From contig NZ_CP109473.1 in the NCBI RefSeq assembly GCF_036227405.1, positions 6,882,001 to 6,946,000 of the forward strand: a DNA stretch of 64,000 nucleotides. The letters run 5' to 3'. Source of the stretch: Streptomyces sp. NBC_01460 (lineage in GTDB: Bacteria > Actinomycetota > Actinomycetes > Streptomycetales > Streptomycetaceae). The notes under the pieces were generated by a model. The model searched no databases, was not told where the DNA came from, and saw only the letters and a list, made by a program, of their open reading frames with translations. The stretch's first letter is position 1. Every line of letters begins with the position of its first letter. Made by a program: the position numbers and the translations under genes. Below, piece by piece: positions 19,164-25,089 of the stretch.

Positions 19164-19211
19164 GTCAACTCCGGGTTGACGGACCCAGGGTGTCAACCTA
19201 GGGTTGACGCA
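19164..19211 (+). promoter_or_regulatory. two perfect palindromes overlapping a leaderless promoter
   Basis: Two 17-base inverted repeats GTCAAC-N5-GTTGAC (19164-19180 and 19192-19208) lie 28 bases apart centre to centre. The right arm of the first supplies a -35 (TTGACG, 19176-19181). The end of the spacer and right arm of the second supply a -10 (TAGGGT, 19199-19204) at 17-base spacing. A start site about seven bases beyond the -10 would coincide with the ATG at 19211, so the message is expected to be leaderless. A repressor bound here would block both hexamers. Confidence 0.75.
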
Positions 19212-19960
19212 TGACGAAGCCGTTGCGTCCCCGTCCGCCGATCCGCCTCGACGACCTCATCGACGCGATCAAGAGCACCCACACCGACACGCTGGAGCAG
19301 CTCTCCGGGGCCGTGGTTGCCGCGGATCACCTGGGCGAGATCGCCGACCACCTCATCGGCCACTTCGTGGACCAGGCGCGCCGCTCCGGCGCGTCCTGGA
19401 CGGACATCGGCCGCAGCATGGGGGTCACCCGGCAGGCCGCCCAGAAGAGGTTCGTGCCCAAGAAGCCCGGTGAGCCGTCGGACCTGGACCCGAGCCAGGG
19501 CTTCGGCCAGTTCGACACGGAGGCCAGGAACGTCGTCATGGGCGCGAGCAACGAGGCCCACGCCGCCCGCAACGACGAGGTGGGAGTGGAACACCTGGTC
19601 CTGGGCCTCCTGCTCGACCCGGCGTCCCTCGGTGCCCGGGTCGTCACCGGGCAGGGAGTCGCGCTGGAGGCGGTCCGGGAGGCGGCGACGCTCGCCCTCC
19701 CGGCCGCGGCCGACGAGGTCCCCGAGCTCATCCCGTACGACGCGGGGGCCCGCAAGGCCCTGGAGCTCACGTTCCGGGAGGCGCTGCGTCTCGGTCACGA
19801 CGTCGTCGGGAGCGGGCACATCCTGCTGGCCCTGCTGGAGTTCGAAGACGGCGCGGGCCTGCTCGCGGGGCTGGGCATCGACAAGGAGGCGGCGTCGTCG
19901 GCGGTCGCCGAAGGGGTCGCCCGCGAAATCGAGGAGTCAACTCCGGGCGCCGGAGGCTAA
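19211..19960 (+). CDS. HTH and Clp N-terminal repeat domain protein
   Basis: A 249-residue protein. Residues ~50-85 contain an HTH-like segment, 'SWTDIGRSMGVTRQAAQKRF'. Residues ~95-240 contain two Clp-N repeats ('FDTEARNVVMGASNEAHAARNDEVGVEHLVLGLLLD' and 'ALELTFREALRLGHDVVGSGHILLALLE') as in ClpC/ClpA N-domains, but no ATPase follows. It may be a DNA-binding regulator sensing clients or phospho-signals through the Clp-N fold, or an adaptor. The start has no ribosome site and sits three bases after the second palindrome, consistent with a leaderless mRNA and autoregulation. The permuted tRNA-like sequence begins nine bases after its stop. Confidence 0.85.
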   Translation: MTKPLRPRPPIRLDDLIDAIKSTHTDTLEQLSGAVVAADHLGEIADHLIGHFVDQARRSGASWTDIGRSMGVTRQAAQKRFVPKKPGEPSDLDPSQGFGQFDTEARNVVMGASNEAHAARNDEVGVEHLVLGLLLDPASLGARVVTGQGVALEAVREAATLALPAAADEVPELIPYDAGARKALELTFREALRLGHDVVGSGHILLALLEFEDGAGLLAGLGIDKEAASSAVAEGVAREIEESTPGAGG

Positions 19961-19968
19961 GGTGGCCG

Positions 19969-20115
19969 ATGAGCGCCCGGTGCGCAGGCGACGGATACTT
20001 CTTTCTGCAAAAAAGAGGACCCAGGTTCGAATCCTGGCGGTCCGGTTCCGGCCGGACCGTGGTGCAGCGGCCCAGCATCTTGTCTCCGTGGCCGACTTCG
20101 ATCTCGGGCGCTCAT
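19969..20115 (+). ncRNA. structured RNA: flanking helices enclosing the permuted tRNA
   Basis: The flanks of the tRNA-like core pair with each other. An 11-base-pair helix ATGAGCGCCCG (19969-19979) with CGGGCGCTCAT (20105-20115) is perfect. An inner helix, 19987-19995 with 20085-20093, has eight pairs around one G-G mismatch. These helices hold the two ends of the core, positions 26 and 27 of the tRNA numbering, side by side. No group I or II intron core is visible in the short intervening loops. The segment starts right after the Clp-N gene stop and is followed by a terminator hairpin, so it is probably in the same transcript. Confidence 0.7.
20000..20079 (+). tRNA. circularly permuted tRNA-Cys(GCA)-like gene
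   Basis: The 3' half comes first: anticodon arm TCTTT-CTGCAAA-AAAGA (20000-20016, anticodon GCA at 20007-20009, T33 and A37), four variable bases, T arm CCAGG-TTCGAAT-CCTGG (20021-20037) and acceptor 3' strand CGGTCCG (20038-20044). After a short loop comes the 5' half: acceptor CGGACCG (20053-20059), T8 G9, and D arm GTGC-AGCGGCCCA-GCAT (20062-20078) with A14, G15, G18G19 and A21. Rejoined as 5' half then 3' half it folds as a complete cloverleaf of about 73 bases, with U8, Levitt pair G15-C48 and a seven-pair acceptor. No CCA is encoded. The base after the seven-pair acceptor is G; an eighth pair is possible, which would make the next base U73, the Cys discriminator. Maturation by ligation, or a tRNA-mimic role, is inference. 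Confidence 0.8.
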
Positions 20116-20125
20116 GAACCTGCCG

Positions 20126-20152
20126 ATGCCGCCCCCTCACCGGGGGCGGCAT
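20126..20152. terminator. terminator hairpin after the permuted tRNA
   Basis: A perfect 11-base-pair stem (20126-20136 with 20142-20152) around the loop TCACC. It lies between the RNA gene and the stop of the convergent SDR gene, so it can serve both directions. It lacks a long T-tract, as is usual in high-GC actinomycetes. Confidence 0.75.
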
Positions 20153-20171
20153 CCCGCGTTTCCGGAGCGCC

Positions 20172-20951
20172 TCAGTGCACCGAGAACCCGCCGTCCACGA
20201 ACAGCGACTGTCCCGTGACGTAGGCCGAGGCCCTGCTCGCCAGGAACACCGCGGCCCCCGCGAAGTCCTCGGCCAGTCCGTTGCGCCCCACCATCGTGCG
20301 CGCAGCGAGAGCGGCCACCCGCTCCGGGTCCGACGACAGCCGCTGGTTGAGCGGCGTCATCACGAATCCTGGCACCAGGGTGTTGCAGGTGACTCCGTGC
20401 GGCGACCACGCCTCGGCCTGCGAGCGGGCCAGGGACTCCAGGGCACCCTTCGAGACCCCGTACGCGCCGCTCTGCACGAATGCCCGGTGGGCCTGCTGGG
20501 AGGTGATGTGGATGATCCGGCCGAAGCCGCGCTCGGCCATTCCCGGGCCGAAGCGGCGGCCCAGCAGATGGGGCGCCTTGAGGTTCACCGCCATCGTGGT
20601 GTCCCACACGTCCTCGTCGAGCTCGCTCATCGGCGGCCGCAGGTTGACGCCCGCGCAGTTGACGAGGATGTCGGGTTCGCCGAAGACCGCCGCGGCCTCG
20701 TCGCCGGCCGCGCGCACCCCCTCGCCGGTGCCGAGATCGGCGCTCACCCAGGCCGCTCGGCGGCCCTCCGCGGTGAGTTCGTCCACGGTCCGCACGAGCT
20801 CCGACTCCCTGCGGGCCACGATCACCACCTTGGCGCCCGCGCGGGCGAGGGCGTCCGTGATGCCCCGGCCGATGCCGGAACTCCCGCCGGTCACCACGGC
20901 GACCCGGCCTTCCAGCGAGAAGAGTTCGGAGAGATAGTTCTGCGACGTCAT
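20172..20951 (-). CDS. SDR family oxidoreductase
   Basis: A 259-residue classical short-chain dehydrogenase/reductase. The cofactor motif is 'VVTGGSSGIGRGI', 'NCAGVN' replaces the usual NNAG, the catalytic Ser region is 'RIIHITSQQAHRAFVQSGAYGVSKGAL' with YxxxK, and 'PGFVMTPLNQRLSSDPER' is the substrate-loop segment. The C-terminus 'YVTGQSLFVDGGFSVH' is typical of gluconate 5-dehydrogenase/ketoacyl reductase-like members. Arg in 'VARRESEL' favours NADP(H). The substrate is unknown. ATG at 20951. It converges on the structured RNA locus across a terminator. Confidence 0.9.
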   Translation of the reverse strand: MTSQNYLSELFSLEGRVAVVTGGSSGIGRGITDALARAGAKVVIVARRESELVRTVDELTAEGRRAAWVSADLGTGEGVRAAGDEAAAVFGEPDILVNCAGVNLRPPMSELDEDVWDTTMAVNLKAPHLLGRRFGPGMAERGFGRIIHITSQQAHRAFVQSGAYGVSKGALESLARSQAEAWSPHGVTCNTLVPGFVMTPLNQRLSSDPERVAALAARTMVGRNGLAEDFAGAAVFLASRASAYVTGQSLFVDGGFSVH

Positions 20952-24980: not shown

Positions 24981-25033
24981 GGAAGGAGGGCGGTCCCACG
25001 TGCCGGCAGGCGGCGTGGGACCGCCCTCCTTCC
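24981..25033. terminator. strong hairpin terminator after the glutamate operon
   Basis: A perfect 20-base-pair inverted repeat (24981-25000 with 25014-25033) has a 13-base loop containing TGCCGGCA. It sits in the 267-base space between gluD and the convergent TetR gene, and probably terminates both. The rest of the space shows no gene. Confidence 0.85.
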
Positions 25034-25089
25034 GCGCGTGGGACGGCCGCCCGTGCCACGCACGGAGGCCGGCCGGTCCACGACGGCGG

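Follow-up and report, generated by a model that had tools for sequence, protein, structure and literature searches.

A probable YrlA-type Y RNA with a closed anticodon arm, encoded away from rsr in Streptomyces sp. NBC_01460

The window analysed here is a stretch of 64,000 nucleotides from Streptomyces sp. NBC_01460 (contig NZ_CP109473.1, positions 6,882,001 to 6,946,000). Positions 19969-20115 of its forward strand lie between a gene for a protein with a Clp N-terminal domain (19211-19960, + strand, PF02861) and a convergent short-chain dehydrogenase gene (20172-20951, - strand, PF13561). A possible -10 element, TAAGGT (19958-19963, +), was recognised by eye and overlaps the stop codon of the upstream gene. 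At threshold, a promoter scan gave no sigma-70-type promoter for the RNA encoded between the two genes; since no promoter of its own was found, this RNA may be cut out of the transcript of the upstream gene. Downstream, a perfect 12-bp hairpin (20125-20153, +, seen by eye) possibly acts as a shared terminator outside the RNA. It was not called by a terminator scan that requires a T run, and similar hairpins were seen by eye in some relatives whose corresponding site is devoid of the RNA. Inverted GTCAAC...GTTGAC motifs at 19164-19180 and 19192-19208 precede the Clp-like gene, and GTCAACTCCGGG recurs at 19936-19947, near the end of that gene and before the RNA.

The RNA is composed of a double basal stem and a tRNA-like module, all on the + strand. 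The outer stem is formed by the 5' and 3' ends (19969-19979 with 20105-20115, 11 of 11 pairs) and is followed by an internal loop with GUGCGCA on its 5' side (19980-19986) and GACUUCGAUCU on its 3' side (20094-20104). GUGCGCA is invariant in alignment A2, near-invariant in alignment A1 and replaced by GUGCGAA in many other copies with a closed anticodon arm; the GANCU of the 3' side is seen repeatedly in both alignments. The inner Y stem (19987-19995 with 20085-20093) has 8 of 9 pairs, its sole mismatch (19990/20090) being a non-pair in 7 of 7 rows of A1 and G-C in the relatives G343 and G353. These pair counts, 11 of 11 and 8 of 9, agree with what the first-pass annotation had stated for the helices clamping the module.

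Within the module, a closed anticodon hairpin of 5 bp with a 7-nt loop (20000-20016; loop CUGCAAA at 20005-20011, positions 34-36 at 20007-20009) is followed by the equivalent of a variable loop (20017-20020) and by a T arm (20021-20037) with loop UUCGAAU (20026-20032). The T-stem pair 20023/20035 is A-U in the window and G-C in three relatives. The acceptor-stem equivalent consists of 8 pairs between its 3' strand in tRNA numbering (20038-20045) and its 5' strand (20052-20059), as seen in covariation and in the computed fold. A 6-nt loop (20046-20051) caps this stem and leaves neither a free 3' end nor a CCA; judged by eye, the length of the cap varies between relatives. The D arm (20062-20078), with the G18G19 equivalents at 20069-20070, completes the module and is apparent in sequence, covariation and fold. 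The elements therefore stand in permuted order: the chain first runs through the anticodon hairpin, the T arm and one of the acceptor strands (20000-20045) and only then reaches the other acceptor strand and the D arm (20052-20078).

All six helices are present when 19969-20115 is folded to minimum energy, along with a small number of additional pairs in the internal loop and where helices end; one U-G pair extends beyond the 8 acceptor pairs. This fold has an energy of -72.8 kcal/mol; 200 dinucleotide shuffles averaged -56.56 (sd 4.07), which corresponds to z -3.99, and none of them folded as low.

A covariance model, R1, was trained on four orphan relatives with the window excluded. A MAFFT alignment of seven closed forms had misplaced the anticodon and acceptor gaps and alignment A3 had misplaced L004, hence the use of alignment A4, which holds four sequences that align cleanly. 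R1 recovered the window RNA at 19971-20114 with 94.8 bits (E 2.8e-22 over 162 kb; E 1.5e-20 over the whole genome). At E 0.001 it gave some match in 149 of 150 genomes, many of the weak ones being partial and presumed to be ordinary tRNAs. In an earlier genus-wide search, the piece 19975-20004 recurred in addition to the tRNA-like part, with some match in 62 of the 150 genomes (E 0.001). In a class-wide scan, R1 matches at E 1e-12, closed or canonical, were obtained from 26 of the 296 genomes and from 10 of the 114 genera.

Covariation was assessed in 68 distinct relatives (alignment A7). Standard pairs occupy 99.5% of the cells, in an alignment that was fitted to the R1 structure, includes the four training rows and is biased towards that structure. 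Under the same bias, two-sided changes are found in 24 of 35 pairs (shuffled mean 12.8) and in 209 cells (shuffled mean 38.6, sd 5.0), and sliding the partners by 1-3 columns brings pairing down to 32-47%. Two-sided changes affect two or more pairs in each helix: the outer stem shows them in 4 of 6 modelled pairs, with 100% of cells paired, the inner stem in 7 of 8 and the anticodon hairpin in 3 of 5. In the independent MAFFT alignment of seven sequences, two-sided changes are seen in the outer, inner, T and D stems, and the gaps are misplaced in the other two helices. The permuted tRNA-like fold of the first-pass annotation is thus borne out by the minimum-energy fold, its z score and covariation, and the compensatory changes that it had proposed to look for in all helices, including 19969-19979/20105-20115, are present in the relatives. 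Judged from these sequence comparisons, the window RNA is a real and conserved RNA. The sets used for covariation, for the hairpin letters and for the distance to rsr, described below, each number 68 and differ in membership.

Bacterial Y RNA genes usually lie beside the gene for Ro60 (Rsr), and this is where most strong relatives of the window RNA were found. R1 gave 68 matches with scores of 82.9 bits or more in the 150 genomes; of these, 52 are located within 350 nt (24-344 nt) of rsr and 16 are not, counted against 88 strong Rsr matches in 80 genomes and leaving out weaker R1 matches away from rsr (e.g. L110 and L111). The Rsr scan gave some match in 93 of the 150 genomes; the weaker and partial pieces were dropped, and none of them is on a contig of the 16 orphans. 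One of these orphans (G122:C52) is about 1 kb from a contig end, with no Rsr match in that stretch. When named actinobacterial genomes were searched with a DNA pattern, 102 hits were classed among the matches listed (80 of at least 120 stretches), and 84 of them share their stretch with an Rsr gene. Seven genomes (G013, G016, G030, G039, G100, G109 and G133) have two near-full-length Rsr matches each, the second being 65-72% identical to the query, and three Rsr matches contain one internal TGA (G114:C1:103365-104954, G055:C12:103349-104938 and G005:C1:1411130-1412191).

RNAs at rsr loci often occur in tandem and have two motifs in common, a 5' one that ends in UACUUC and a 3' one of GANCU plus stem; in some of these RNAs a T arm, a capped acceptor and a D arm are inserted between these motifs. 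Tandem neighbours that have no tRNA module are called YrlB-like here, a label borrowed from the rsr-yrlBA operon of Salmonella. R1 revealed a further Y RNA, mostly with a closed arm, at the head of 15 of the clusters examined (the arm is missing in L012), resulting in the order closed-arm Y RNA, YrlB-like RNA, canonical YrlA and rsr. The rsr cluster of the window genome holds only the last two RNAs, YrlB-like and canonical YrlA. There, the TROVE/Ro60 gene (C1:1966069-1967646, - strand) lies 71 nt downstream of a match to the Rfam YrlA family RF02553 (C1:1967717-1967818, - strand), and a second copy of the piece 19975-20004 is found just upstream of the same gene. The encoded Rsr has 526 aa, with TROVE above and VWA below the Pfam cut-off, and the PDB entries related to it in sequence bear the name TROVE domain-containing protein; a TROVE family search gave a match in 1 of 14 control genomes, a Deinobacterium. 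The rsr-linked RNA scores 51.1 bits against RF02553 (cut-off 69), and since this family also gives below-cut-off matches in 7 of 14 control genomes, the YrlA assignment at rsr rests mainly on the place beside that gene. The window RNA itself is located 4.93 Mb from rsr, adjacency to which we take as usual and not as defining for Y RNAs (16 of 68 without it).

The bacterial Y RNA YrlA was reportedly studied in Wang et al. 2018 and Chen et al. 2014, and PDB entry 6CU1, from Salmonella, represents it. This bacterial Y RNA (6CU1) is described as superposing on tRNAs with a circular permutation (PMC11472068). In a review, the YrlA module is likened to the D, T and acceptor arms of tRNA, with Rsr at the stem and PNPase at the module, and it is modified by DusA and TruB; the role proposed for Y RNAs is to tether nucleases and to gate them (PMC8394870). 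The window RNA shares with YrlA the long stem formed by its ends, which we find both in the fold and in the covariation of the two stems, and the circularly permuted order of T arm, capped acceptor and D arm, which the canonical YrlA RNAs of the same genomes also display, the rsr-linked copy doing so in its RF02553 alignment. It differs in the anticodon arm. In RF02553 and canonical YrlA the anticodon stem is made by the flanking strands of the module and the chain enters through an open anticodon loop, whereas in the window RNA a closed 5-bp/7-nt hairpin is present, the flanking-strand stem is absent and entry of the chain falls between positions 26 and 27. Such across-module pairs number five in 14 and four in 7 of the canonical copies, counted as the best of three offsets in the 21 of 33 copies with a recognised D arm, the other 12 being dropped. 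RF02553, with its cut-off of 69 bits, gave no match to the window RNA up to E 10, and the window RNA is not among the three RF02553 matches in its own genome. YrlB-like RNAs have the same basal-stem motif as the window RNA and are devoid of T, acceptor and D arms. Two of them (L014 1464-1541, - strand, and L031 1416-1493, + strand) carry the loop CUGCAAA on a short hairpin that resembles the anticodon arm of the window RNA and has the corresponding location. Another Y RNA, L015 1375-1488 (G057), has a T arm and a capped stem and no evident D arm, and is possibly an intermediate between YrlB-like RNAs and YrlA.

The letters of the closed arm were compared in 68 of 106 rows, taken because they form a stem of 5 bp and a loop of 7 nt at whichever of four offsets fits best; stem pairing was thereby selected for, the loop letters were not, and rows with four pairs, two of which look closed (L010 and L127), were left out. 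Loop position 32 is C in 66 of these 68 hairpins, position 33 is U in all 68, position 37 is A in 60 and position 38 is A in 67. Positions 34-36 in the same hairpins take 17 values (CAU 20, CUU 10, GAU 9, CUC 6, GUU 5, GCA 3, others fewer). Even close relatives differ: the anticodons of G343 and G353, both 92% identical to the window RNA, are CCA and CUC, and that of the 89% relative G169, at the same site, is GCA. With 17 anticodon values in 68 hairpins, the GCA of the window therefore hardly means cysteine. That C32, U33 and A38 are kept while 34-36 vary suggests selection on the shape of the loop rather than on a codon; by its letters, the closed-arm family conserves the anticodon-loop shape and not the codon. 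A fixed U33 beside a free anticodon in the Streptomyces set also suggests that something reads the shape of this loop. The permuted architecture as such was already known in Y RNAs; the closed arm, the free anticodon and the copies away from rsr are the parts for which we found no description, with titles and abstracts as the scope of the search for the closed arm and the primary YrlA papers outside it.

We consider it probable that 19969-20115 is, judged by sequence and structure, a Y RNA of the YrlA kind, with a basal stem predicted to bind Rsr and a permuted but complete tRNA-like module that would likely tether or gate an exoribonuclease such as PNPase. The fold, the covariation, the kinship with rsr-side RNAs, the rsr gene and YrlA-like RNA of the genome itself and the closed hairpin are observed. 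Expression of the RNA is presumed, and the binding of Rsr through the stem, the recognition of the module by tRNA enzymes and the recruitment of PNPase are carried over by analogy from published work on YrlA (PMC8394870, PMC4726728). Once transcribed, the RNA would fold as a linear molecule. The basal stem, including the conserved internal loop, would be the site for Rsr; tRNA enzymes would meet the tRNA-like end, and so would PNPase, as proposed in other species, so that the Y RNA would tether or gate RNA decay. The copy is an orphan, likely gained between the Clp-like and dehydrogenase genes before the window genome and one other sampled genome, G169, parted, and would work in trans, with the single Rsr that we found in the genome as its partner. 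Such a mechanism has no need of splicing into a tRNA, and none of its steps needs an RtcB ligase. Given its rsr-side kin and the free anticodon, the copy is likely to serve as a mimic of tRNA rather than as a tRNA itself, which is the second of the two options that the first-pass annotation had offered and is supported by the Y RNA kinship and the rsr-linked relatives.

It is less likely that the copy is a decaying and unexpressed relic of a Y RNA cassette, a reading that we regard as improbable. It agrees with the orphan position at 4.93 Mb from rsr, the outcome of the promoter scan and the absence, judged by eye, of an upstream block seen in a stand-alone class of orphans described below. 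Moreover, the Clp-like and dehydrogenase genes adjoin directly, by eye, in 7 of 8 relatives (G052, G029, G064, G071, G005, G148 and G114), the eighth (G074) having no dehydrogenase gene within the stretch examined. R1 gave no Y RNA in the loci of 29 relatives (L067-L095, to 1.5 kb beyond the Clp-like gene). Against a relic stand the intact helices and basal-stem motif of the window RNA and its retention at the same site in G169, beside a Clp-like gene of 77% and a dehydrogenase gene of 89%. A scan of 392 genomes at E 1e-9 gave matches in 14 genomes, the window genome included. Between the window and G169, 9 of 40 helix pairs differ, of which 6 stay standard, one by a double change (20023/20035, A-U versus G-C). 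The other three are non-pairs (19972/20112, 20002/20014 and 19990/20090), the last being a non-pair in the window too. Substitutions affect 11 of the 80 positions that are paired and 6 of the 63 that are not, and are thus no rarer in stems, a point in favour of a relic, as are the uncompensated changes; taken together, the comparison with G169 fits an upkeep of the RNA structure, if weakly. In G343 and G353 the RNA is the second of a pair (L299 and L300) and is preceded by a YrlB-like RNA; no Rsr match was found within about 10 kb of this pair, in a search in which three positive-control loci matched. The more distant relatives L266-L271 are linked to rsr.

A reading compatible with a Y RNA is that of a full tRNA decoy, in which the closed arm would occupy anticodon nucleases or loop enzymes and Ro60 would be a carrier or uninvolved. 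The near-invariant C32, U33 and A38 around a free anticodon speak for it, and for the tRNA-like domain of the Salmonella YrlA a role as competitive inhibitor is raised as a possibility (PMC7790460). Conversely, YrlB-like RNAs have a similar hairpin without a tRNA module, which may thus be a general Y RNA tip, and the same report did not detect fragments of the Salmonella YrlA and did not take it as a nuclease substrate (PMC7790460). We regard a decoy of this kind as unlikely. In a broader and tentative form, actinobacteria would have made the Y RNA into a full, unchargeable tRNA decoy that spread as stand-alone and plasmid-borne copies and is offered to Ro60 or to an enzyme that cuts or modifies anticodons; this remains speculative.

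The first-pass annotation had read the locus as a circularly permuted tRNA-Cys(GCA) gene whose transcript is matured by an unknown cut-and-ligate route. The transcript would be cut between positions 26 and 27 and joined, and the acceptor would be opened and given a CCA for use in translation. In permuted tRNA genes of archaea and algae the 3' half likewise precedes the 5' half and a loop joins the acceptor strands; a permuted bacterial RNA with a tRNA-like end is known as two-piece (permuted) tmRNA. The window RNA shares the order of the halves and the acceptor-joining loop with the former and the permutation and tRNA-like end with the latter. It differs from archaeal and algal genes in its unconserved anticodon, its kin tied to Ro60 and a genome without a splicing endonuclease match, and from two-piece tmRNA in its 147 nt and an acceptor closed by a short loop; ARAGORN called no tmRNA in the window. 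A complete cloverleaf with GCA, U33, T-loop consensus and G18G19, an RtcB ligase encoded in the genome and the GCA retained at the same site in G169 favour a tRNA. However, the tRNA-splicing endonuclease family PF01974 has no match in the window genome, while 4 archaeal controls match, and an ordinary tRNA-Cys(GCA) is encoded at C1:1498501-1498574. Together with the varying anticodon, which denies the family the conserved amino-acid identity of a tRNA (17 kinds in 68, with CCA and CUC at 92% identity), and the capped acceptor without CCA, these findings speak against a permuted tRNA gene. CysRS uses U73 as an identity element; in the window RNA a 7-bp acceptor would be followed by G instead. 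Most strong relatives (52 of 68) also adjoin rsr. A maturation into tRNA-Cys thus finds no support and is highly improbable; the expectation that typical bacteria lack the splicing endonuclease agrees with the PF01974 search, and the presence of an RtcB-type ligase, which had been suggested, is not counted against the earlier reading. The claim of a bacterial permuted tRNA gene is hereby removed and replaced by a testable family of closed-arm Y RNAs.

Least probable of all is an ordinary tRNA-Cys in normal order, or a pseudogene of one, at 19977-20046, as read by ARAGORN and hinted at by a score of 25.7 bits for the Rfam tRNA family (RF00005), since this score is below the cut-off of 29, the alignment has non-standard acceptor pairs, and the reading builds its acceptor and D arm from a different 5' strand and ignores the downstream acceptor strand and D arm that covary with the upstream half (20038-20045 with 20052-20059, helix 5). 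No Rfam family matched anywhere in the window at its gathering threshold. As a tRNA scanner called this probable Y RNA a tRNA-Cys, such annotations deserve re-inspection. ARAGORN also called a tRNA-His of 88 nt at 25000-25087 (- strand), which has no Rfam match at the gathering threshold and is likely a false call.

Forms labelled as closed occur in at least 12 actinobacterial genera among the matches listed, a label that demanded U33 and A38 and is uninformative on loop conservation. These genera include Streptomyces, Kitasatospora, Amycolatopsis, Rhodococcus, Nocardia and Nocardiopsis, and further Actinomadura, Nonomuraea, Planomonospora, Planobispora, Sciscionella and Dactylosporangium. A second, stand-alone class of orphans comprises 12 loci (L036-L047) and the more distant L097, which are similar in sequence and mostly at unrelated sites, three sharing their flanks. 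By eye, its members have an upstream block like AATTCGCGTGC...GCTACCGT, which a specific sigma factor could use as its promoter and which is missing from the window copy, and a GC-rich hairpin downstream. Phage records gave no match to the window RNA, and plasmid records gave two, one from a Streptomyces plasmid with 73.5% over 85% of the query and the other spanning 37% of the query. The copies that lie apart from rsr, including the one carried by a Streptomyces plasmid, provide natural cases in which a role of Y RNA without the operon can be studied. A closed-arm Y RNA lies on a 678-kb Streptomyces plasmid at L262 4001-4130 (NZ_CP109366.1, 298581-298710), with no gene listed under it.
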